This document shows positions 20,259 to 49,206 of a stretch of 64,000 nucleotides of DNA, in pieces. The DNA is from Prorocentrum cordatum (Eukaryota; Sar; Dinophyceae; Prorocentrales; Prorocentraceae). The notes beneath the pieces were generated by a model. That model searched no databases. It was not told where the DNA came from and was given only the letters and a program-made list of their open reading frames with translations. Each line of letters opens with the position of its first letter. Position 1 is the stretch's first letter. The stretch lies in assembly GCA_963575745.1 (NCBI GenBank), contig CAUYUJ010003647.1, forward strand, positions 376,522 through 440,521, given 5' to 3'. The translations under genes were made by a program, and so were the position numbers.

Positions 20259-20266
20259 CATCATCG

Positions 20267-20327
<61 letters not shown>
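20259..20327 (+). repeat. (CAT)n microsatellite, left half, element target
   Basis: Twenty uninterrupted CAT units (20,268-20,327) end exactly where repeat A1 of YR element copy 1 begins. The tract resumes on the other side of the element at 26,668. Confidence 0.95.
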
Positions 20328-20404
20328 GAGCATGGTCTTGAAACGCTGTTCCCCGTCTGTCCTTCTGCGGCCCCTTTTGGGCTCCGACCAAAGTCGCTCA
20401 AGCT
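20328..20404 (+). repeat. split direct repeat A1 of copy 1
   Basis: Aligns with A2 at 26,421-26,497: GAGCATG, TTCTTGAAACGC or TCTTGAAACGC, CTGTCCTTC, GCGGCC, TTTTGGGCTC, then TCGCTCAAGCT. After that A1 jumps to AATTCA, which is found further along in A2. This suggests A1 has lost about 45 bp internally. Confidence 0.88.
20365..20402 (+). promoter_or_regulatory. tandem spliced-leader-like motif upstream of ORF1
   Basis: GCGGCCCCTTTTGGGCTC is followed by CCAAAGTCGCTCAAG. The first resembles the body of the dinoflagellate spliced leader (GCCATTTTGGCTCAAG). The second resembles its form truncated after the internal AG (CCATTTTGGCTCAAG). The motif ends 17 nt before the ORF1 ATG. A2 has the same pair at 26,458-26,495. 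Similarity is by eye and includes mismatches. Confidence 0.45.
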
Positions 20405-20419
20405 AATTCACGGCGGCCC

Positions 20420-21974
20420 ATGTCAGCTGCTGTGCAGGCCTCGCTCAGGGCGGCGACCTGGCTCGCGGACCGTGTGCTCGAGAGTGCGGTGGTCTCAAAG
20501 GCGGGCTCTTGTGCGATAGCCGTGCAGGTGTTCGGCGGCGTGCGCGTCGCTTTCGGGACCGTGCTGATCGGAGGAGTGTTGCTGGGGGCGCTGCTCGGCG
20601 CCAACGGCTGCTGCTGCGGCCTGGGCGATCGGCGACCGCATCGAGGTGCAATGGCGCGCGGACGGGAGCTGGCAGGCGCGCGTCGTCGTGGGCTTCGCCA
20701 CCGCCGCCGAGTTCACGACAGTGATGGGGACAGCACCTCCAGCAGGAGCGGAGGAGAGACGCGAGATCGCATACATGATCACGCCCGACGGCGACATGTA
20801 TCCCCACGTGCTGCATCCCGACGCGATCCAGGGCGCAGTGAGAGTCCTCCGCGGGCAGAGGGACCGCGCGTCAGTGGTTGGCACGGCCCCAGCCGCCAAC
20901 GCGAGGTCGTACGGCGCCGACTGGGCACCCGAGCCGCGGGAGTTCCTGGAGGCGGTGGCGGCCGCGTCGGCACGGTCCTTCGGCGAGGTGGAGACGATGC
21001 TGAGACGACCAGCAGCGCCCAAGGAGGCGGGCTTGGACTCGGATTCAGCTCCGATGCCGCCTGACTGGGAGAGCGCGTCCAACCTGCCCGACCCAGATAG
21101 CAAGGGGTGGTATATCATCGCGGGCAGCGACCAGAGCAGCTCTGCCAAGCTGCCCAGCCTGTCCGTGGACTTCGGGGTGATCGGCGAGGGCCTGGGCTTC
21201 GTGAAGGTCGGCAACAGCAGCTTCCTCGTGCAGTACGGGAGCCCAGGGACGGCCCTCGACGCACGGGGGCTGGCGATCCACAAGAGCGCAGGGGACGGGC
21301 GTCACCTGGGGTTCCGCGAGGGTGTGAAGCAGCTCACGGAGACTGCCTGGCCGTCCTGGCCCTTGCTGGGCCCGAGGACCGCGGGTTGGGTGTGCCACTT
21401 CATTCGGGACCAGGATGTTGCGCCTCGCTCCCGCCACGCTCGGTTCAAGGCCGAGGCGGGGCTGTCGTCGTCAGATCCAGGGGTCGACTTTCACGAGTTC
21501 TGCCGACGTCTGCTGCAGATTGGCATTCAGTTTGACCAGCTGAGCGTGTCAGAGCTTGCGATCTTTGAGCTGATCTGCAGGAAGGCGCAGATGATTGAGT
21601 ATAAGTACAGGGATAGGTATCTCCACCGCATGGGCGCCGCGGGCGATGATTTGGCCGAGGACGAGCACATCTACTTCGGCACGTCGGAGACCCGCGGCCT
21701 CATGATGATCTCGCCCGCCCTCTCAAGCTACGTGGCAGCTGAGTTGCACAAGGATGCGATTGTGCTCAAAGAGAGACGCAAAGTACGGGAGGAGAGATCG
21801 ACAGCTCGGCGTGGCGGCGCAGGCGGCAGCGGAGGCCATGACAACTCAGCGGGCCTGCAGAGCCGCGCCGACAAGCTGGCGAGTGAGAACAAGTCTGTCA
21901 AGGAGAAGTTGGCAGCCACCGACCGGAAGGGGAAAGGCAAATCAGGAGCGGCTGCGGCCGCGGATAGCAAGTAG
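20420..21974 (+). pseudogene. ORF1 (gag-position protein) of YR element copy 1
   Basis: This is the ORF before pol, in the position of gag. The start chosen is the ATG at 20,420. Residues about 43-60 form a hydrophobic Gly/Leu/Val membrane segment followed by Cys-rich GCCCG. The frame then shifts near 20,625 into a long frame with GDRIEVQWRADGSW, PDGDMYPHV and SYGADWAPEP, and with DEHIYFGTSETRG and KERRKVREER near the C-terminus, ending in a Lys-rich tail. Copy 2 shares YGSDWGPG, KDEHLYMGTVEIR and GRRDLREER, which supports real coding in this frame. No zinc knuckle is seen. The TAG at 21,972 is 8 nt before the ORF2 ATG. I do not know the biochemical role; capsid-like or membrane-associated packaging would be inference. 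Confidence 0.7.
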
Positions 21975-21982
21975 TCTCAGCG

Positions 21983-24555
21983 ATGGCGGCGCCACGGGAG
22001 CTGTTCCCAGTCCCCGCGGCTTTACGGGTCGAGGAGGACTTCAACGGCTTCTACTCCTCGACGCGACATCGGAGAAGCCGTGCTCGCCAATATTTCTATT
22101 CTTCTCGCTGGGCATGTGAAGCTCTACACGGTCTCAATTGGCTGTGCGGGCGGGGCGTGTCGAGCAACTTCGAGTCTCTCTCCATGGGTTAACGCCAAGG
22201 CATCGAGCAAATGAGTACTAGAATTCAGGCCCTTGGTGGGCCACCTTGCACTGCGGCGGCGGCCATCACGGAGCTGTGCCGAAGTACACCAGGCTATGAC
22301 TGTCAGCCCGTGAAGTCCACCGTGTACATCGAAGGTCGTGTGAGTCTCCCCAGCGACGCCGCGAAGTGCGACGCTTCCGAGCTGCTGGACGGTCACCCCC
22401 GCGAGTTGTGGCATGATTGGCGTCAGCGACTGCTACGCGATCCCGAACAGGTTCGCGACCGAGTCGTTCCGTACTTCGATGGGAAGCTGCGGCGGTCTCC
22501 ACGCCACTATGCTTGCTTCTTGAGCGAAATGTACAAGGCGGGTGTGATTCGTTTTTCTGCCCCACGCCCTTCCACGGTGGGCTTGTTCTTTGTTGAGAAG
22601 TCGGGGAACCAGCTGAGGGTGATCCTCGACGCGAGAGCTGTCAATCAGGAGTTCATCGATCCTGACACGACCGCGCTGCCATCGGCTGGCGTCTGGCAGG
22701 GCCTGAAGATCCAAGCCAGCCACAACCTCTCGCTGAGCCAAGTGGACATCGAGGCGGCCTTCTATCGCATCGGAGCGCCGCCAGGGCTGGACGAGATGTT
22801 CGTGCTGCCTGCGGTGCCCGTGGACGCGTTGCTGGAGGCGCTGCCCGAGGTGGACATCGGGTCTCGGCTGGAGGGCAAGGTCTCGCCTTTGCCCACTGTC
22901 TTTCCCACGGGCTGGAGTTGGAGCTTGTACTTCTGCCAAGCGCTGGTGGTATCTCAGGTCGTTGCGGCTGGCATCCGCGCGAACCGCATCATACAGGACA
23001 GGTGTGTAGTGCCCGACGTGAGCGAGACTGCGGGCGTCGCCGTGTGCGTCGACGGCGTGGCCGCCATCGGGTGCGCCCCTGTGTCCGTGAGCACGACGAT
23101 TGAGCAGGTCCACCAGCACCTGGAGGCCAGCCATCTGAAGTGCAAGGGGGTGCAGTCGGACCCGCGGGATCAGAATTTCACGGGCTTGAACTTCGATTTC
23201 GAGACAGGCCGCACACCCGTGAGCAAGGGCCGCATCTGGAGGCTGCGCTTGGCGTTGCTGGAGGTCGCCGAGCGCGGCTACTGCAGCGGCGACGACATGC
23301 TCTCGCTCCTCGGCCACTGCACGTGGGCCGCCATCTTGCGGCGTTGTTTGCTGAGCTTCTTCCACGGTGCCTATCGTTTCTCTCGGCTGCAGGGCCGCGG
23401 CGTTGGCGTCTTTGGCCCGAGGTGGCCACTGAATGCCGCGTGGCAGCAGCTCTCATCGCCTTCGCTTACCTGGGCACCAAGCTGGAGGTGGACCCCGTGG
23501 TGCTAGCTACGGACGCCTCCACGGGTTCAGGAGACCTGGAGGGCACGGGGTTCGGAGGCTACGCCGTGACGGAGAAGACCTGGACTCGGCACGACGTCTG
23601 GGCCGCAGCCTCTTGTATGGAGCGTTGGCGGTACAAGTTCGAGGGTGCCATAGAGGCTCGGCGACATGCTCTCCAGGCTGCGCGTGAACTCGAACGAGGT
23701 GACGAGGCCAGGGGGCTGACTGGCGTGACAGGCCTTGTCGAGGACCCTGAGACGTCTGACACGGTCCTGCCCCTCAAGAGCGAGGGGGTCAACTCGGATG
23801 TCGAGTGCTGCCCAGCCTGTGCAGTGTGTGTGTGTGTGTGTGTCAACATCGGTCGAGCACCAGGTGAATTTCGAGGAGATCGACCCGAGCTTCTTGTTGC
23901 CGCTGGACTCATGGAAGCTGAAGGTGTTCGGGCGCTGGCTGCGCCCTGAGGACATCATGCGTCTGGAGGGCCGTGCGCTGATCACTGGCGTGAGACATCG
24001 GCTTCGATGGGCAGGAGCTTTCGGTCATGTCATCCTGAGCCTGTGCGACAATTTAAGTTTGACACTTGCACTGGAAAAAGGGAAGATCGTCACATTATGT
24101 TCTAAATCAGACGTGCAGAGAGCTGGCCGCCTTGAGTATCCTGACGGGATCGTCCGTAGCCGTACGCTGGTTCCCAAATGATCTTAACTCGGCGGACAAG
24201 GGGAGCCGCACCATCGGGCGACCGCTCAGCTCCCACGAAGGCGATTGCCGCCATGCTGGCCAGCTCGGGGCCGACGAGGCGCGGGGCCTTGCTGCCTCGG
24301 CCCTCGCCCGCGCTTGCGGCGAGGCAGCCACCTGGCGGGACGCGGGCGGCACGCGCTTCCTCGGCGAGGTTGAGGAGCGCGAGCAGCCTGGGCGGGACCT
24401 CACTGCCAAGAGAACCTGCCCAGCCGAATGGTGGCCAGGAGGACCCGCTGGGAGACGCCAACGGGGTCGAGCACCGCCGCAGCCTCAGCTCCGACAGCTC
24501 CTCCACCAGCGACACGGAGTCGGGCGGGTCGGCCTGTGACTCGGGCCGAGATCTT
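21983..24555 (+). pseudogene. ORF2 N-terminal part: reverse transcriptase-RNase H, copy 1
   Basis: The start ATG at 21,983 gives MAAPRELFPV; copy 2 starts MPVPRDLLPA at the same place. An in-frame TAA at 22,190 breaks the N-terminus. RT signatures are LRVILDARAVNQ (about 22,615), motif A SQVDIEAAFYRI (about 22,735), motif B FPTGWSWSLYFCQ (about 22,900) and motif C CVDGVAAIG (about 23,043), where YxDD would be usual. A frameshift near 23,400 leads into RNase H: VVLATDASTGSG (about 23,497), then LEGRALITGVRHRLR and LCDNLSLTLALEKG after a shift in a (GT)n run at 23,822-23,843. A further shift at an A-rich run near 24,075 precedes AVRWFPNDLNSADKGSR. A Ser/Asp-rich linker follows. The enzyme would copy element RNA into DNA and degrade the RNA strand; this copy cannot encode it intact. 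Confidence 0.85.
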
Positions 24556-24557
24556 GA

Positions 24558-25688
24558 GGAGAGCGGGCGAGCACCAGGACGGCCCGCCACGGCGACGCGC
24601 GGGGGGGCGTCGAGCCTGGGCTCACCTTCTTGCAGACCAACAAGGTCAAGCCGCCCACGCGTACCGCCTTCCGAGAGCGAGTACGGAACTTCCTAGAGTG
24701 GGCCAACGAGGGCACGCCGGCGGAGATCTCCACTCGGCGCCTCGACCAGCTGGCGGCCATCTACATGGACGTCCTGATCTTCGACGGGATGGAGGTCGGC
24801 GAGGGCTCGAGGCTGCTGGCTGCCCTGCAGTACCTGCGACCCAGCTTGGGGGCGGCTCGCCACGGCAACTTTCCCGTGGCTCGAGCAGCGGTGGCTGGGT
24901 TCCGCCGCCGCGCCCGAGGAGGGACTCGAGACCCTCTGTGCCGGCCTTGGGTGCTGGCGGCGGTCGGAGTCAGCCTGCTGCTGGAGGACCTGGAGTTCGC
25001 GACGGCGCTGTGGCTGGCCTGGGACGGCATGCTGCGCTTGCCGTCCGACCTGGTGAGCATGACGCCCAAGACCTTGATCGGGCCTGGCAGGGCGGTGAAG
25101 CCCGCGTGGGCCCTTCTCCTCTACCCCAGCGAGGAGGAGGCGAGGAGCAAGGATATGGGCGCCGACGAGGGTGTGATCTTGCGCGAGGCCTGCTGGAGCG
25201 GCGGCGGCAGCGTGGCCCTGCGGCGCCTCCGAGGAGCTCGGGGCCCCAGCTGCCAGCTCTGGTCGTTCGACGGGGCCTGATTCACCGAGCGGTTCGAGGA
25301 GCGGCTGGCCGCCCTGCCCGAGGCGCCCGCGGCGGTCGCCTACCAGGTGCACCACGGGGCTGCGAGTCACGCGGCGGCCATGGACCTGCTCTCCCTCAGC
25401 GGGATCACCGAGCGACTGCGGCACGGCAACCCGCACAGCAGCTTGCGCTACGCCAAGCACGTCCGCTACCTTGCCCTGCTGAACAGGGCGCCGCAGGCCG
25501 TGGTCGACTGGAGCGAGACGATCCACGCGCGGCTGGGCGGCCTGCTCGGCGGGATAGACGTCTTGCAGGCTCCCGCCTTTCTGCCGCAGAGTATGCTCGA
25601 GGCCTTGCGCGCCAGCTGCGCCAAGGCCTCACATTCGGGTGTGAACAAACAGTCAAGTTTTCCTCGAAGTTGGATTCTCGAAGGGTGA
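24558..25688 (+). pseudogene. ORF2 tyrosine recombinase domain, copy 1
   Basis: The N-terminal SAM-like helical part begins FLQTNKVKPPTRTAFRER and includes LDQLAAIYMDVLIFDG and LLAALQYLRPSLG. Catalytic box I is DGMLRLPSDLV, with Arg at 25,035-25,037. A TGA at 25,278-25,280 interrupts the same frame. The second box reads YQVHHGAAS, where the family pattern would have LRHG; the Arg is His at 25,350-25,352. The nucleophile region reads SSLRYAKHVRY, with the Tyr codon at 25,449-25,451. This enzyme class inserts circular DNA intermediates by strand exchange, which explains the lack of a target duplication. The premature stop and missing Arg make this copy inactive. Confidence 0.8.
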
Positions 25689-26274
25689 GGTGAGTCGATG
25701 TCTTTGTGAGTCCAGTGAGCACGGTGCAGTGTGGGTCAGCGCCTCCATGTGTGATATCATCTCGGTCGCCCGAAAGATGCTCATTGGGTGGGTCGGTTAT
25801 TGTGCCGTGCGCGGCGTTGTGGTGACGCTTCCCGACTTGAGTGCCGATCACACAGGGGACAGTAGTTACCAGCTCCGTGCAACTATTGCCCAGTGCATCC
25901 AAATCCTGCTTAAGATTGCTAATGCTGCTTTTTCCGTTGGGCGCCCAGCGATTGCAATCAGTCCTTGCAAGGAGCAACTAGAGCCTGTTCAGGATTATCT
26001 CGGTTTTTGGTGTCGGGCCCGTGGCGTCTGGACCTCCAGAGTGCCCCCCTGTGCTTTTTCGGCTTTGTGTCGCCACGGCCCGCTCGACATCTTAACGGCC
26101 TCGGGTGGGCCTTTTGTTTGTAATGATTTCCTCTGTCGCCACCGCCGTGTGTCTGCTCCTAGTAAGTCGCCCCTCGTTTTCTTCGAGGCTGCGCCGGCCT
26201 CTCGTCTCAGCTTACACTTTAGGGGTGCCGCCGACAGAAATCATATTGACAATTTAACCCGCCTGGTTTGTTGA
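25654..26274 (+). pseudogene. ORF2 C-terminal methyltransferase-like domain, copy 1 (degenerate)
   Basis: Directly after the recombinase, in a shifted frame, the sequence reads QVFLEVGFSKGEVSRCL, then LIGWVGYCAVRGVVVTLPDL and ATIAQCIQILLKIANAA. These line up with copy 2's QVFLGLFAGQGSVGSAL, LLGWVGPDCVRGAWAAPP and ARQFEKIMRACLA, so both copies carry the same extra domain. The C5-methyltransferase assignment comes from copy 2. Here motif I glycines, the PPC-like loop and ENP are all eroded. The frame ends at 26,272, 30 nt before B1. Confidence 0.5.
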
Positions 26275-26304
26275 CATGGACCAGGGGCCAATTCGGGCTG
26301 ATTC

Positions 26305-26420
26305 GGGGACGATCGGTTCCGCCGCTTGTGAAGTCAACCGCTGCACCGTCCGAGAGATACGATCTGGATGAAAGGACAGAGAATAGTGTTGTCTGGCCGC
26401 GCCTGGGGAGGGGTCGGGCT
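26305..26420 (+). repeat. split direct repeat B1 of copy 1
   Basis: 116 bp from GGGGACGATCGGTTCCGCCG to GAGGGGTCGGGCT. Nearly identical to B2, with about five differences seen. Confidence 0.93.
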
Positions 26421-26551
26421 GAGCATGTTCTTGAAACGCCGTTGCACGCCTGTCCTTCCGCGGCCTTTTTTGGGCTCGGACCAAATTCGCTCAAGCTCCC
26501 CCACACCCTCCCCGCTTGGCGTGGCCTCCGCCACAACTTTAATTCAGAAGA
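26421..26551 (+). repeat. split direct repeat A2 of copy 1
   Basis: 131 bp starting GAGCATGTTCTTGAAACGCC. It contains the spliced-leader-like pair at 26,458-26,495 and ends TTTAATTCAGAAGA. It joins B1 and B2 without spacer. Confidence 0.92.
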
Positions 26552-26666
26552 GGGGACGATCGGTTCCGCCGTTTGTGAAGTCAACCGCTGCACCGTCCGA
26601 GAGATACGATCTGGATGAAAGAACAGAGAATTGTGTTGTCCGGCCGCGCCTGGGGAGGGGTCGGGC

Positions 26667-26667
<1 letters not shown>
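26552..26667 (+). repeat. split direct repeat B2 of copy 1
   Basis: 116 bp, same start and end as B1. Its last base is followed immediately by the CAT tract, which fixes the right boundary of the element. Confidence 0.93.
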
Positions 26668-26745
<78 letters not shown>

Positions 26746-27490
26746 TATCATTATCATTATCATTATCATCATCATCGTACTCCCCCGCGGGTCCTTCCGT
26801 TCCGTTCCTCCTCTTCCTCCTCCTCCTCCTCGGTTTTCTCCTCCTCGTCCATGTTTCCCTCCTCCTCCTCGTCCTCCTCCTCGTTATCCTCCTCCTCCTC
26901 CTCCTCCTCCTCCTCCTCCTCCTCTTCCTCCTCCTCCCCTCCTCCTCCTCCTCCTCCTCCTCCTCTCCTCCTCCTCCTCCTCCCCCTCATCCTCCTCCTC
27001 CTCCTCCTTCTCCTCCTCCTCCTCTTCCTCCTCCTCCTCCTCCCTCCTCCTCCTCCTCCTTCTCTCCTCCTCCTCCTCCTCCTCTCCTCTCCTCCTCCTC
27101 CTCCTCCTCCTCCTCCTCCCTCCTCCTTCCTCCTCTCCTCCTCCTCCTCCCTCCTCCCTCCTCCTCCTCCCTCCTCCTCCTCCCCTCCTCCTCCTCCTCC
27201 TCCTCCTCCTCTCTCCTCCTCCTCCTCCCCTCCTCCTCCTCCTCCTCTCCTTCTCCTCCTCCTCCTCCTCCTCCTCCTCCTCACTCCTCCTCTCCTCCTC
27301 CTACCTCCTCTCCTCCTCCCTCCTCCTCCTCCTCCTCCTCCCTCACATCATCAATCATCATCATCATCTTTTTCCTTCCTCCCCTCCTCCCCCCCCCCCC
27401 TCCTCCTCCTCCCCTCCTCCTCCTCCTCCTCCTCCTCCTCCTCCTCTCCTCCTCCCCCTCCGCCTCCCCCATCCTCCGCCTCCTCCTCCC
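26668..27490 (+). repeat. (CAT)n tract then long (CTC)n-rich tract
   Basis: 26 perfect CAT units (26,668-26,745) grade into CATTAT, then about 670 bp of CTC/CTT-rich repeat. The left flank of the element shows the mirror order (CTC-rich then CAT). This fits one pre-existing compound microsatellite split by the insertion. Confidence 0.93.
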
Positions 27491-43064: not shown

Positions 43065-43170
43065 GTGTATATTTCCGTTATCAAACCTGCTTGTCGTCCG
43101 CCGTGGGGCCGTCTGAAGCCATGGCCGAGTGTGCGCGTTCTCTGTCCGTTGCTTTTTCGCTCAAGCTCTT
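43065..43170 (+). repeat. split direct repeat A1 of copy 2
   Basis: Matches A2 through TTCCGTT, TCAAACCTGCTTGTCG or TCAGACCTTCTTGTCG, CACCGTG-like, GTGCGCGTTCTCTGTCCGT and TTTTTCGCTCAAGCTC. A1 has an extra block of about 25 bp near 43,105-43,130. Confidence 0.82.
43146..43165 (+). promoter_or_regulatory. spliced-leader-like motif upstream of ORF1, copy 2
   Basis: CCGTTGCTTTTTCGCTCAAG compared with the dinoflagellate leader, which ends TTTTGGCTCAAG and starts CCGTAGCCA: about 17 matching positions with one gap. It ends 21 nt before the ATG at 43,187. A2 repeats it at 48,990-49,009. Confidence 0.5.
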
Positions 43171-43186
43171 TTTGGACGACCCGCAC

Positions 43187-44606
43187 ATGTCGTCCACAGT
43201 CTCTTCTGGAAATCCTCGGAGGCGCCCGCCCCATCAGCAATTTCGTGCGTACTGCGGCCTCGTGTCTCTCCTCGCAGGGGACCAAGCCAAGGACTGCGTG
43301 GTGGTTGACTGGGTGGTGCGTATGGGGCCCCTCATCGCTGTGCTGATCTGGCTCGGTGGGTTCGTGAAGGTCGACGCCGCCGTCGTCAAGACAAGGCGTA
43401 TCTGGTACTGGATGCGCCCGCACCTCGAAGTGTATCCCATCGCGCGGGACCTGGCGAGGATCTCTGGGCTCTAGGTGCTGGACAGTTCGAGCAGCATGGT
43501 GGAGACGTTCGGCGCACGGCGCACGGCCACGAGACCGGATTACGGTTCGGATTGGGGGCCCGGCTTGTTGGAGGTCGTGGAAGCAATCGACTTCGTGGCG
43601 GACCCAGGGCCCGTGCTGACGACACGCCTTCGTGGGAAGCAAGCAGTCCCAGCAGCCACCGCGATGTGGACAGCTGCAGCGGGGGCTCGAGTGCTCGAGA
43701 TCGAGGATGAAGTCTTGCCGGCGCTGAAGCAGCTGGAGTGTTGCGTGGTGCCGTCTTGCGGGAATCCCCGGGCAGGACAGCGTGGGGCCGCGGGTGCCCT
43801 GGATGAGTATGGCTACGCTGGAGAGTTCGCCGTGGGCCTGTTCGGCGGTGGGGTGGTATTTTTGTGGGCCGCGGACCCCAAGAATGGCGACATTCAGCTC
43901 GCATTGGGCGTTCGCATCTTCCCGATTCAGTATTCGGCGCATGGCAGGCGGAAGCGGTCCCTCAGGATTACGGTCGAGACGGTCCTGGATACGCCGTTGG
44001 AGGTCTGGCTCTTGCTCTGGACTCCAGGGCCAGGGGCTGGCGTCTTCGGTTCAGAACTGAGCAGGAACGCTACCCCAGGGCCTGACGCGTCCAGTGGCTC
44101 GACGAGGCGGGGCTGACCCTCGCGAACCCGGTGGTGGCTGATCCAGAGGTGGCGATGCGAGCCTTCCTTCGAAATCGGCCTCTGCTACGATCAGGGAGAC
44201 ATCAGTGAGATTGCGGTGTTCGGTGCTGGCCCGACGGGCGTAGATGGCGGAGTGGAGGTGCCGTGATCATCTTGCAGCCCAGCAGGCCGACGAGACGTTG
44301 AAGGACGAACACTTGTACATGGGCACCGTGGAGATCCGAGTGCACACTATGGTGGCCCCATCCCCCGTGGAGCGCATCTTGAGCGAGTTGCGCCGCGAGA
44401 GTGCCACCATGAAGGGGAGGAGGGATCTTCGAGAGGAGCGCCAGTTCGCACGAGGGGAAGGTGGCCCGAGTAGCGACGCCAAGGGGGCCCTGCAGAAGAA
44501 GATCGAGTCCACGGCCGCGGAGCTTCGCAGACTCCAGGCCCGCCAGGCCGCCGTCGGCGGCCAGGCAAATGGCGGCGGCCGCGGTGGCGGCCGCTGCGGC
44601 AAGTGA
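43187..44606 (+). pseudogene. ORF1 (gag-position protein) of YR element copy 2
   Basis: The ATG at 43,187 is chosen because it has the same distance to the leader-like motif as in copy 1. The first frame contains a membrane segment, RMGPLIAVLIWLGGFVKV (residues about 47-64), then stops at 43,472. The next part has MVETFGARRTATRPDYGSDW and ARVLEIEDEVLPALKQ, then frameshifts, WLDEAGLTLANPVVADPE near 44,100, and finally a frame from 44,244 with DEHLYMGTVEIRV, ERILSELRRES and GRRDLREERQFARG and a Gly/Arg-rich tail. The same order as copy 1 supports one ORF1 family. Role is unknown. Confidence 0.65.
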
Positions 44607-44613
44607 CCGAAGG

Positions 44614-46860
44614 ATGCCAGTGCCCCGGGATCTGCTCCCTGCATCGATCCCGGGGCGTACGGGCAGCGATGGGGGCTCCTCTTGCTGCCGGGCGGTGCGC
44701 TCGCGCGCGCGTCGCCAGTCGTTCGTCGACCCCTGGGCGGACGAGGTTTTCGTGGCGCTGATTTGCCTCTACGGACGCGGGGGCGGGCCTGATCTCGGTC
44801 GGCTCAGCAGCGGACAGAGTTGGCTATCAGCGTGGATGCAGTTCAAAGGGTCGGCGCCCCGGACGTTTCAGGCGCGGCAGCCTTTCGAGAGCTGCGTGCA
44901 TCAGCTCCTGGGTGCCTCTCCGAGCCCCAGAGGCCCGCCGCCTTCAAGCGCGAGCTCGTCGCGCTGCCGACCCCGGGTCCGAAGTGCAATTGCGCTGAGC
45001 TGTTCCAGGGGGAGGCGTGTGATCTATGAGAGGGCTGGCGTAGGGTGCCGTCGCGGCCTCGACCCGCTGGCGAGCCGGTGAAGCCCCACTGCGACCCCAA
45101 ACTCATGCGCAGCTAGACGTCCCACGCACAGTTCGCGGGCGACATGTTGGACGCTGGCGCGGTGGGCCTCGGTCCGTTGTGCGAGGCGACGCCGTGGATC
45201 TTCTTTGCGCCCAAGGGCTCGGGAGCGTTCTGGCTGATCCTCGACGCGCGACGGGTGGGCCAGTTTCCCGAGCAGCCAGCGCACACCTCGCTCCACACCG
45301 CTGGAGCGTGGCGAGGCATGCGCGCCCCCCCGGGCGAGGAGCTGAACTTTGCCCGGGTGGACATCGAGGCCTGCTCCTACCGCGTGGCCGTCCCCGACGG
45401 CCTCTTCCGATTTCTTTGTTTTCGGGGAGGTGGATCTCCACGGCTCGTCTTGATCTCGAAGTTCTTGAAGGAGGAGTGGCCTCGCCCCGTCTGATGGTTC
45501 TGCCTGCGGGATGGAGCTGGTCACTGTACTTCTGCCGGGAGATCGTGACCCAGCGCGTGCTCCGTAGCGGCTTCTCGCCCGCCTCGCTGGTCGAGGACCG
45601 ACGGGCGGCCCCGAGGTCGGAGGGGCCCACGGCCGCGGCCACCCACGTCGACGGGGTCGCCATCATGGGCACAGACGCTGCGGAGCGCCTGCGGGGCTGC
45701 ATCAAGGTGAAGGAGGCCTCAGAGCAGCGCGGCTTGCTGACCAGGGGGGTTGTCGAGCCGTGCAGCGAGCAGATCTTCGCAGGCCGGATCTTCCATCGGG
45801 CCAGCGGGCGGGCGTCTTTTTCGCGCGCTCGCCTGTGGAGGATTCAGCAGGCGCTCCTCTTTGCCGCCGAGTCCAGGGCCCTGGCGGGCGGGCAGGTCAG
45901 GCAGCTGCTGGGCTACTGCACGTGGGCCTGCCTAATCAGGCGCGGGCCCCTCTCGGTTTTCGCGGCCACGTACTCCTTCGCGGAGAAGGCCGGGGGCTGA
46001 GCCTGGCGCCCGCGGGCTGCAGTGCGCCGCGAGCTGCGCCCTGGGGCCACCCTGATCGCCCTCGCGTTCGCGGACCTCGCGCGGCCCATCGACGGGGCGG
46101 TGGTCGCCGCGGACGCATCCTGCAGCCGCCGAGACGAGAGCGTTGCCGACTGCGGCGGGTTCGGGGTGGTCAGTCGGGAGCTGGGCCCCGACATCATACA
46201 GAGAATATTGCAAGTAAGCGAGCGATGGAGGTGCCGCGCGCTAGCCAGCATGTAGGCTCGGGCCGCTTCTCTGTGCCTGCACTCGGACCTTCCTGCGCAG
46301 TGGAAAAAGCACGAGCACAATCTCGACGCGCTTGACGGCGAGCTCCGCCTGGCCCCTACTGGCACGTCGGAGTTGTTCACGTTCCTGAAGGGGCCCTCGG
46401 AGACCTCTACTGGGCCCTGCACCTCTGGGTCTGCGACCGGGCCCGAGCACGTCCTGGGGGACTCGTTCGAGGAGGTGGGCAGCGTTGTCTTGGGTACGCC
46501 TGAGGGTCGGAAGGTTTGTTTTCACTGGCGTTTCGGGCGAGCAGGGGGCATCGTGACTCTGGAGCCCAAGGCTCTTCTCATGGGGGCCCGGCATCTTCTC
46601 CGATCCCGCCGTCGGATGGGCAACCGTTTCTCGGCGCTCTCGGACAACCTGTCGCTCGTCCTAGCAGCGGGGAGAGAGGGGATCCTCAGTTCCCGCTGTT
46701 AACGCCGCTTTGCGTCGCATTGCGGCACTTTGCCTGTTCGCAGACGTCGACCTCACAGTTCGTTGGATCCCCTCAGAGCTCAACCCAGCAGGTCGCCCTT
46801 CGAGGCTACCTGGAACCCTTGTCAGAGATGCGATGGGCGACCCGCGTAGCATCCCTAGGC
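44614..46860 (+). pseudogene. ORF2 N-terminal part: reverse transcriptase-RNase H, copy 2
   Basis: The ATG at 44,614, 7 nt after the ORF1 stop, gives MPVPRDLLPA. FVDPWADEVFVALICLYGRG follows, then frames shift. RT signatures are PWIFFAPKGSGAFWLILDAR (about 45,192), motif A ARVDIEACSYRVA (about 45,352), motif B LPAGWSWSLYFCRE (about 45,500) and motif C THVDGVAIMG (about 45,642). RNase H is VVAADASCSRRDES (about 46,101), LEPKALLMGARHLLR and LSDNLSLVLAAGREG (46,559-46,678), then after a shift VRWIPSELNPAGRPSR (about 46,757). The VDGVA at motif C is shared with copy 1. A Gly/Ser/Asp linker (GSGSDSSGDSGSDDG, about 47,040) leads to the recombinase. Confidence 0.82.
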
Positions 46861-47169
46861 TCAAAGCCCCTGGGCTGGACCTGTGGACGCCTTCTGGTCT
46901 CGAGGATAATAGCGGACTTCCTTGGCATGCCGCCGTTGAAGCCGCGGCTGCAGAGGGGCCCCGGTCTGCCGCCCACCGCGCGGTCGCGAGGCATGGCGAC
47001 ACTTGGGGCCGTCGCGCCGCTGGCGCGGGCCCCGCGAACGCGGGAAGCGGCAGCGACTCCAGCGGCGATTCCGGCAGCGACGACGGGAAAATCCGCGAGA
47101 TCGGGCGCGGCCTCTCTTGTCGCGGAGCTCCGCCGTCGCGGAGCCCGCGCGCGAGCTCGGCAGGCAGCG

Positions 47170-47962
47170 ACGTCGTTGCGGACGCCGAAGCCGGGGGACT
47201 CGCGGATGTTCTTGCAGGCGCGCAAGATCAGGAGCGGCTCGGTGCAGCACCTCGACCTGTGTCACGATCGGTTCGCGCGGTGGATGGCCGAGTGGGGGTT
47301 TCGGGGACAGACGGCGGAGCAGCTGGACAGCCTGCCGAGCACGTGCCTCGACCACCTGCTGCTCGAGGGCCACGGGGCACAACGCGGGCAGCGAGGTGAT
47401 CTCGGCGAGGAAGCACTTCAACCCCAACGTCAACCTGGTGGTGAGGCTGCCGGGGGCACAGGGCCTCGGCAAGAGCTGGGGCTGGTTGCTGTGCCTGGAG
47501 AAGATCGGGAAGGGCAGCAAGGGCCAGATCTCCGACGAGGGCATGCCGCTCTCGGTGGACGTCTCACGAGCTCTTGGGCCCTTCCTTCGCGGGCTACGAG
47601 CCGGGCCAGAGAGGGCCGTGCTGGGGGGGGTCAATGCCACGGAGTTCGTCGCGCTGCTCCAGAGATTCGCCGGCCGCCTGGAGATGGGCGCCCTCCGCCC
47701 CGGCAGGATCCGCCGCGGCTCGGCCAGCTGCGAGGTCGCGGCCAGGAGGCAGAGCCTGAAGCGGGTGCAGGCGCGACTTCGCCGCGCCAACTTGTCGGGC
47801 ACGCGGACATGCAGTCGCGCGGCTCGACGCCTCGCCGAGTCGCCCAAGGCGCCCGCCATCGATCGCGACTTCGGGGAGAACGCGCCGCTGCGCACTGGCG
47901 CCCTCCTGCCCGGCAAGCGCAGCCCCGGGCGGCCGCCAGCGCGGTCGCGCTGGCCGCGGTGA
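47170..47962 (+). pseudogene. ORF2 tyrosine recombinase domain, copy 2 (deleted core)
   Basis: The N-terminal part has FLQARKIRSGSVQHLDLCHD and FARWMAEWGFRGQTAEQLDS. After a frameshift the next frame has SEVISARKHFNPNVN running straight into LVVRLPGAQGLG and SWGWLLCLEKIG. In copy 1 about 60 residues, including box I Arg, lie between these points, so a deletion near 47,430 is inferred. The second box reads RPGRIRRGSAS with Arg kept (47,711-47,716). The nucleophile site reads SGTRTCSRAARRL, with Cys (TGC, 47,810-47,812) where copy 1 has Tyr. The domain is therefore inactive in this copy. Confidence 0.72.
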
Positions 47963-48076
47963 CTGGGCAGGCGAAAGGCGACGCTTGCCAGAGCCTGTGT
48001 CGACAGCCTCGCAGCGCTGCAGCGGCTCGCCCGTCGGCTCTTTGCGCGGGTTCTCGGCCAAAGCCGCGACCGAGCG

Positions 48077-48794
48077 CAAGTCTTTCTGGGCCTCTTTGCT
48101 GGGCAAGGGTCGGTTGGATCCGCCCTCCGCCGTAGTTCTGACTTTGGCGTTGTCTCGATCGTCTGTCGTCTCGAGTCTTGGATAGATCTTGCGAACCCTC
48201 GCTTGACCGCGGTGCTGCTCGGCTGGGTCGGGCCGGACTGCGTCCGCGGGGCCTGGGCCGCGCCGCCGCGCAGCACCTGGCCCATGGCTAGTCGCAACTT
48301 GTTCTGCATCGCCTTTTAACATATACGGCCATAGTCACGCCCACGTTGAGGCCCGCATGAAAATTGTTATCGAAAGCGCTCGTGCCAGGCAGTTTGAGAA
48401 GATCATGCGCGCCTGCCTCGCACGGGGAGCGCATGTCGGCGTCGAGAACCCAGCCACCAGTCTAACGTTTCACGAGCCAGTCTTCAAGTATCTTGCCGAG
48501 TTGCCCCGCTGCACCAAGACAGCGTTCGAGTTTAGTGCCCGCGGTGCTCGCTGGCGCAAGCGCACCAAGCTGCTCGCGTGGATTTGCGGGCCGCTACCAC
48601 TTGCACTCTGTAAGAAATGCTCTGGGGCCAAACAGCTTTTCAGTTTTCTGGCCGTCCTCGCATCAATATTGAGGGAAAGGCTCCGTGCGGACAAAAATGG
48701 ACCAAGTTGGCCGAAGCCTATCCACCGCCGGTTGCCCGTGCCATCGCCACTTGGTTGCTCCGCGCCGCCGGTCGAATCCAGCTTGCCAGAATGA
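48077..48794 (+). pseudogene. ORF2 C-terminal C5-methyltransferase-like domain, copy 2
   Basis: The first frame reads QVFLGLFAGQGSVGSALRRS, like the AdoMet-binding motif I FxGxG of cytosine-C5 methyltransferases, then LLGWVGPDCVRGAWAAPPRS and TWPMAS, like the PPC...S/T loop of motif IV with Cys replaced by Arg, ending at TAA 48,317. The next frame reads KIMRACLARGAHVGVENPAT, like motif VI ENV/ENP, and ARWRKRTKLLAW, like motif VIII. Motif order fits a Dcm/Dnmt-type enzyme. Copy 1 has the same domain in the same place. Cytosine methyltransferases carried by dinoflagellate retrotransposons have been reported, so this is plausible. The missing Cys and the frameshift argue that this copy is inactive. 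Confidence 0.55.
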
Positions 48795-48844
48795 ACAGCT
48801 TGTGCGTTTGTGACACGTGCCCGCCAGAGGCCATGATGGGTTTT

Positions 48845-48942
48845 TGGGTGCGTGTCAGTGCACTGCTGGTTCAGCTCACGAGAGTCCTAGCCTCCCGCTC
48901 GCCTCACACAGAAACATAGTCTCTGGTCTCATCGGGGGACAT
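48845..48942 (+). repeat. split direct repeat B1 of copy 2
   Basis: 98 bp from TGGGTGCGTGTCAGTGCACT to TCATCGGGGGACAT. Matches B2 with about ten differences. Confidence 0.9.
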
Positions 48943-49105
48943 GCTTCCGTTTTCAGACCTTCTTGTCGCCCACCGTGCGCGTTCTCTGTCCGTGGCTTTT
49001 TCGCTCAAGCTCTCCTCCTCCCCTCCTCCTCCTCTTTTATACGTCTTTGTCAGCCTGCCAGCTGCCTGTTTGTAAATGCTTGTCAATGCCAGTCCAGTTT
49101 GCGTA
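48943..49105 (+). repeat. split direct repeat A2 of copy 2
   Basis: 163 bp starting GCTTCCGTTTTCAGACC. It contains the leader-like motif at 48,990-49,009, then a CTCCTC stretch. It lies between B1 and B2 without spacer. Confidence 0.85.
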
Positions 49106-49206
49106 TGGGGTCCGTGTCAGTGCACTGCCGGTGAAGCCCACGAGGGTCCTAGCCTCCAGTTCGCCTCACACAGAAACGCATAGTCTCTGGTCTCATCGGG
49201 GGACAT
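49106..49206 (+). repeat. split direct repeat B2 of copy 2
   Basis: 101 bp from TGGGGTCCGTGTCAGTGCAC to TCATCGGGGGACAT. Sequence after 49,206 no longer matches the B1/A2 junction, which sets the right boundary. Confidence 0.9.

Follow-up and report, generated by a model that had tools for sequence, protein, structure and literature searches.

We characterized a tyrosine recombinase (YR) retrotransposon at positions 20327-26667 of a 64,000-nucleotide stretch of the dinoflagellate Prorocentrum cordatum (contig CAUYUJ010003647.1, positions 376,522 to 440,521), referred to below as the window. This element and its close genomic copies are called family 1, and L-numbers denote loci fetched from the genome, which was searched as a 4.13-Gb assembly of 21,875 contigs. 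Taken jointly, our results make it highly probable that the window element is a decayed copy with DIRS-type domain order, having a Pol with a methyltransferase-derived tail, a YR gene nested in this Pol, and YR-driven insertion into a simple repeat favoured by the family. The features of the window copy and its insertion site are as follows:

20262..20326: (CAT/ATC)n microsatellite on the 5' side of the target site, with an approximate left limit
20327..20404 (+): A1, 5' terminal split direct repeat; junction CATCA-T-GAGC
20568..21974 (+): gag-like open reading frame (ORF), stop to stop, 468 amino acids (aa); called gag-like from its position only, also in genomic copies
22193..23506 (+): reverse transcriptase (RT) part of Pol; motif A 22739-22771, motif B 22910-22939, motif C 23042-23071 (CVDG)
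23506..24203 (+): RNase H part of Pol, shifted frames; ATDAS 23506-23520, LEGRAL 23963-23980, LCDN 24041-24061, SADKG 24186-24203
24618..25661 (+): YR, single frame, stop 25278-25280; R box 25017-25046, HxxR-type box 25341-25370 (YQVHH; most copies YQVRH), LRH 25413-25427, Y box 25440-25460
25654..26271 (+): C-terminal domain, probably a degenerate C5-like methyltransferase, +1 to the YR frame in the window copy; motif I remnant 25660-25692, PC position 25810-25839 and ENP position 25945-25968 replaced
26305..26420 (+): B1 repeat
26420..26497 (+): A2 repeat; B1-A2 border GGGC-T-GAGC, the putative circle junction
26552..26667 (+): B2, 3' terminal repeat
26668..26779: (CAT)n microsatellite on the 3' side of the target site, with an approximate right limit

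Repeat layout and coding content

A YR retrotransposon with split direct repeats had been proposed for this locus in an earlier note, and the layout was confirmed by repeat coordinates and identities. A1 and A2 share 87% identity over 78 bp and B1 and B2 96.6% over 116 bp, which gives the A1-B1-A2-B2 order of PAT-like elements, and the terminal repeats found are direct, unlike the inverted termini with internal complementary regions of DIRS1-like elements (25 of 254 inverted pairs were listed). When B1-A2 was used as a DNA query against the genome, 51 matches were obtained and 20 loci were fetched; L009-L015 and L018 (8/20) aligned with the window element without a break between A1 and B2, L017 and L020 aligned in pieces, and the remaining loci were partial or more diverged. 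Near-full-length copies are present at nine other genomic places (L009 and L010 counted as one), and because the same borders recur at many other loci the element is not a chance arrangement. The identity of A1/A2 and B1/B2 within copies equals that between copies, which is neutral on copy-wise homogenisation. L009 and L010 have identical near flanks, one insertion on two contigs, indicating allelic or duplicated contigs.

RT, RNase H, and YR were recognized by their motifs, and a further domain comes after YR, all four being named in the earlier note; the strings ATDAS, LEGRAL, LCDN, and SADKG we take to be RNase H, and the R, HxxR, LRH, and Y boxes we take to be YR. RT, RNase H, and YR thus stand in one element, as in DIRS order, with complete motifs and Pfam scores partly below the cut-off. 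The frames of the window copy are broken, Pol being spread over several frames and the stop at 25278-25280 cutting the YR frame. Pfam searches with the window copy's own frames gave no convincing family, and the gag-like ORF had no Pfam match. In profile searches with alignments of unmended copies, RVT_1 was found in 4/15 RT rows of genomic relatives (best 1.5e-3) and Phage_integrase in 2/22 YR rows (best 1.3e-4; YR scores were better in other families, best 5.4e-5).

Motif C of RT usually reads YxDD. In family 1 it reads YVDG in 8/11 rows covering the motif and CVDG or HVDG in 3, and it reads YVDN or YADN in 18/18 database proteins in which the pattern was found (43 scanned); the second catalytic aspartate is replaced in these dinoflagellate DIRS elements, including L039-L043. 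The DNA_pol_viral_C profile (hepadnavirus type) matched 15/41 database proteins, presumably in the RNase H region.

Reading frame and nature of the terminal domain

A second element of the window, copy 2, belongs to a different family and has the same layout:

43073..49206 (+): copy 2
43073..43105 and 43124..43169: A1
48083..48109, 48260..48292 (Cys lost), 48441..48461, and 48543..48569: methyltransferase motifs
48846..48942: B1
48945..49013: A2
49108..49206: B2

Copy 2 and the window copy share the A-B-A-B layout and the domain order, with 30-41% amino-acid identity in matched pieces, and the related domain lies after YR in the DNA of copy 2 too, as the earlier note had observed. Its view that the domain order is a family trait also held, the tail being present in 10/10 fetched near-full-length loci (L009-L015, L017, L018, and L020). 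The fusion of the methyltransferase behind the recombinase, which it had proposed as well, was not borne out. A genome search with the terminal domain of copy 2 gave 2653 first-look candidates, 150 of which were scored, many in long open frames. L039, L040, and L041 have a single open Pol frame of 1535, 1453, and 1479 aa, respectively (RT-RNase H-spacer-methyltransferase), and their YR ORFs (459, 483, and 467 aa) lie wholly inside the Pol ORF in the +1 frame. In the YR region of ten elements, neither the YR frame nor the Pol frame (4544 codons) has a stop, against 117 stops in the third frame; these ten were selected for long ORFs and are biased in that respect, the third frame serving as the internal control. 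In 29 loci of family 1 and its kin, the tail is out of the YR frame in 26 and has the Pol-type offset in 19, and in L043, a near relative of copy 2, the terminal domain is in the Pol frame. Because the open relatives nest YR in Pol, and given the frame offsets over the 29 loci, the terminal domain is the C-terminus of Pol, not fused to YR, with the nested YR gene lying in the spacer. Against this stand the loci in which the tail is +1 to YR (7/29, the window included) or in the YR frame (3/29: L026, L031, and L035), offsets that would reflect decay. Where L043 has PPC, the methyltransferase motif of copy 2 reads PPR.

We then compared the tail with domains of the intact type, which carry DLFAGxG, PPCSTWS, ENP, and WRKxT. 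The intact-type profile aligned with the genome's own PF00145 enzymes from motif I to PC (hhalign P 2.9e-5, probability 73.8, 72 columns), PF00145 matched 5/15 intact-type rows (best 1.8e-4), and PHROG DNA methyltransferase families matched up to 13/41 database proteins carrying this domain. The family-1 tail aligned with the intact-type methyltransferase (hhalign P 1.1e-9, probability 96.4) over 197 columns that begin at motif I and end in the terminal AADR..N segment, and the negative control, YR versus methyltransferase, gave P 0.86. Two results speak against a C5 identity: PF00145 was found at E<=1 in 0/41 database proteins carrying the intact-type domain, and the family-1 tail compared directly with the genome's C5 enzymes gave hhalign P 0.69. 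It is therefore the profile comparison, together with the motifs, that carries the C5 assignment. The catalytic PC and ENV/ENP motifs of C5 methyltransferases are present in the open relatives and lacking in family 1, where PCxTW or ENP occurred in 0/23 rows (some rows do not cover both positions), and an ordinary C5 methyltransferase in family 1 was rejected on this count. The C5-type methyltransferase of the earlier note thus stands as a methyltransferase-derived domain homologous to C5-like relatives, but not as one with PCxTW or ENP or with a direct C5 match.

Other searches were negative. A first protein database search with the tail returned no matches, the family-1 tail profile had no informative Pfam or PDB match, and Pfam gave no match to Dam (PF05869), the PAT-like type, in the tail or in the proteins of its relatives. 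A TAL-effector match of the tail profile, with 0 significant stretches, was taken as a repeat artefact. No convincing PDB relatives were found for the YR, RT, and intact-type methyltransferase profiles, the RT profile touching retroviral Pr125Pol at E 1.7. PF00145 itself gave 3988 first-look candidates in the genome (123 scored), many of them repeated open frames of 383-576 aa, and these expanded C5 methyltransferases are possibly retroelement-borne.

The tail is under purifying selection. Median omega was 0.43 for YR, 0.44 for the tail (88 pairs), and 0.34 for RT, and 1.02-1.40 in the two shifted sense frames; the spacer in the Pol frame gave 1.40, showing no amino-acid constraint. One shifted antisense frame was also low (0.69 for YR, 0.51 for the tail, and 0.48 for RT), in our reading because its wobble positions coincide with the sense-frame wobble. 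Constraint on the tail was weaker in recent pairs (omega 0.87 at dS 0.03-0.15), and 6/88 pairs were at or above 1, which tells against selection; weak constraint in the most recent pairs is, as expected, what dead copies give. Because of the homology, the motif loss, and the low omega, we presume that the family-1 tail is a conserved and probably non-catalytic relic of a C5-like methyltransferase.

Two other accounts of this domain have to be weighed. If an active C5 DNA methyltransferase were fused to the C-terminus of YR in a new polyprotein arrangement, the position of the domain after YR in both window copies, the shared frame of the YR and domain stretches in copy 2 (one stop between), and the 3/29 loci with the tail in the YR frame would be accounted for; the different frame in 26/29 loci, the Pol frame of the tail in L039-L041 and L043, and the absence of PC and ENP in family 1 would not. 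We rejected the fusion on the open Pol frames of L039-L041, the stop counts, and the offsets in the 29 loci, and give it hardly any credence. It is very unlikely, too, that the domain is unrelated to methyltransferases and that motif I is a chance resemblance. The tail does lack an informative Pfam or PDB match and a direct C5-profile match, but its alignment with the intact-type relatives, set against the control at P 0.86, led us to reject chance.

Insertion sites in simple repeats

The window copy sits within (CAT)n. For family 1 and its nearer kin, the 3' flank was CAT-type at 15/15 scored borders, as it was in 6/6 sister subfamilies, and the 5' flank at 10/11; both flanks of L017 are (GAT)n, that is, the opposite strand of the same repeat. 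The joined flanks are in register across a single T in 7/10 copies, a short duplication being indistinguishable inside a repeat. Left out of the border counts were L010 (the site of L009), L022, the 3' end of L024, L027, L028, L032, and L038 (no clean border), L026 (the alignment ends some bases before the border, with (CAT)n next), L068 (B2 cut), L069 (the locus ends), L072 ((TCC)n, sole copy of its kind), and L083 and L087 (not at the border).

Several observations weigh against simple repeats as targets in family 1 or in the families described below. With the borders used, the joined sites of L011, L017, and L020 fall out of register (an alternative border restores it for L017), borders were set by eye for L030, L033, L034, L070, L082, and L084-L086, the exceptions are L037, L080, L081, L085, and the 5' end of L018, and the 5' flank of L022 is (CACT)-rich. 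CAT-type sequence also forms a background: 3.5% of the 40-mers in the window score, as do 5.5% of those in short coding loci and 6.7% of the 30-mers in C5 loci. At a greater distance within the same flanks the share among 30-mers reaches 17%, so these neighbourhoods are repeat-rich.

Relatives appear to insert into simple repeats as well, the unit differing by family. L041 and its kin lie in (CCT)n, with 8/10 5' flanks at >=15 of 30 bp (the other two 0) and 5/6 3' flanks at >=9 bp (the sixth 8; window background for >=9, 4.4%). (AT)n was found at the 3' border in 9/10 cases (L039 kin 4/4, L040 kin 2/2, and the single borders of L036, L043, and L070; L037 is without), AT runs making up 0.1% of window 30-mers. 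Ten 5' ends among the A-repeat matches were picked by choice, as were nine 3' ends among the 150 scored places. CCT occupies 11% of window 30-mers, and copy 2 has (CATA)n upstream but no repeat at its 3' border, both of which count against family-wise targeting. B1 and B2 are identical in L039, L040, L041, L064, L066, and L071, which points to recent insertion, and an A1 repeat was seen for the L041 family. The B1-A2 border of L041 (5413-5422), the putative circle junction in the (CCT)n family, has the perfectly palindromic sequence GGGCATGCCC. Several families seem to have a single T (or A) in common with the target.

The association with microsatellites could also be a by-product of a repeat-rich genome, of selection removing insertions elsewhere, or of the element seeding repeats at its own ends. 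Simple repeats are common (up to 17% of outer-flank 30-mers for CAT), and other retrotransposons are reportedly able to generate repeats (PMC2887409). However, the repeat unit goes with the family, both flanks are the same unit with the register kept across the single T in 7/10 copies, both flanks of L017 are flipped to the opposite strand of the repeat, and AT runs are rare in the window and yet stand at 9/10 AT-family borders. We therefore regard a by-product as unlikely and keep to YR-driven insertion into the repeat.

Relation to known elements and a proposed insertion route

The following comparisons draw on those portions of the cited articles that were available. C5 methyltransferases in the Pol of Symbiodinium DIRS elements, in two domain orders and with A-B-A-B repeats, were published in 2018 (PMC5890265). 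Like our elements, SymbioDIRS-Dnmt3 comes from a dinoflagellate; its repeats follow the A-coding-B-A-B order, a single Pol ORF holds both RT and a C5 methyltransferase domain, and YR has an ORF of its own (PMC5890265). This architecture is found in the open relatives, and one of the two architectures of SymbioDIRS-Dnmt3 may equal the present one. It differs in that its domain groups with Dnmt3 and keeps the key residues (PMC5890265), whereas here the PPC/ENP intact-type domain was missed by PF00145 in 41/41 proteins, and the (CAT)n clade, without PC and ENP, lacks the Dnmt3-type key residues. The available text of PMC5890265 describes no target choice for SymbioDIRS-Dnmt3.

The split direct repeats A1...B1-A2-B2 are those of PAT-like elements (PAT, TOC, and Kangaroo), which resemble DIRS1 except at the termini (PMC3266345). 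For DIRS elements, a methyltransferase of the Dam-like N6-adenine type has been described (PMC3783388); unlike in PAT-like elements, the domain here is C5-like or degenerate and YR is nested inside Pol. DIRS1-like elements as a standard feature have a methyltransferase in Pol; their YR gene often overlaps Pol, and they integrate without target duplication (PMC3266345). Our elements likewise have a Pol ending in a methyltransferase and overlapping YR, but their repeats are direct and the entire YR lies within Pol in L039-L041. In having a methyltransferase-derived tail they differ from Ngaro-like and VIPER-like elements, which have split repeats and no methyltransferase domain. The earlier note's statement that a C5-type methyltransferase fused behind the recombinase is not a standard part of PAT and Ngaro elements is overstated as a mark of novelty: a methyltransferase is standard in DIRS1-like Pol (PMC3266345), and a C5 one is known in Symbiodinium DIRS Pol (PMC5890265).

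Concerning targets, TATE of kinetoplastids inserts in telomeric repeats (PMC6681497), and the tyrosine recombinases of endogenous nimaviruses insert in telomere repeats (PMC10871703). Both resemble the present elements as tyrosine-recombinase elements in simple repeats and differ in the repeat, which is telomeric there and (CAT)n, (CCT)n, or (AT)n here, varying between families of one genome. No literature on DIRS elements choosing ordinary microsatellites by family was found in the sources covered, subscription literature being mostly outside them; among DIRS elements they yielded only the telomeric TATE, and the available passages of PMC6338049, PMC11453091, and PMC8226300 contribute nothing about targets.

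We infer the following route of insertion. The element RNA would be reverse transcribed, and the A and B repeats would let the ends be completed, giving a closed circle with a B-A junction. YR would then recombine this junction with the simple repeat, one T being shared, so that no target duplication would arise, and each family would favour one repeat unit, (CAT)n in family 1. In the sister families, the C5-like methyltransferase tail of Pol may mark the element DNA, and in the (CAT)n clade the tail, having lost the catalytic motifs, may be retained because it does something other than catalysis, perhaps binding DNA or a partner. Further, we lean slightly towards the broader view that dinoflagellate DIRS-type YRs are microsatellite specialists whose unit was switched between families, with a Pol methyltransferase that is conserved but dead in the (CAT)n clade.

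What is new is the apparent choice of microsatellite by family, and the conserved tail that lacks the motifs is also worth following; the methyltransferase itself is not new. Little is known, to our knowledge, about where YR retrotransposons insert, and we are aware of no eukaryotic YR family in which one member reads a different simple repeat from another. Here several families share a genome, and in some of them the B repeats are identical and the frames open, which makes the link between recombinase sequence and target testable. If the relation is true, these recombinases would be a natural series for how target recognition changes. The retention of a motif-less methyltransferase raises the question of what role such a domain has besides catalysis, and the finding would bear on how microsatellites and retroelements build the very large genomes of dinoflagellates.
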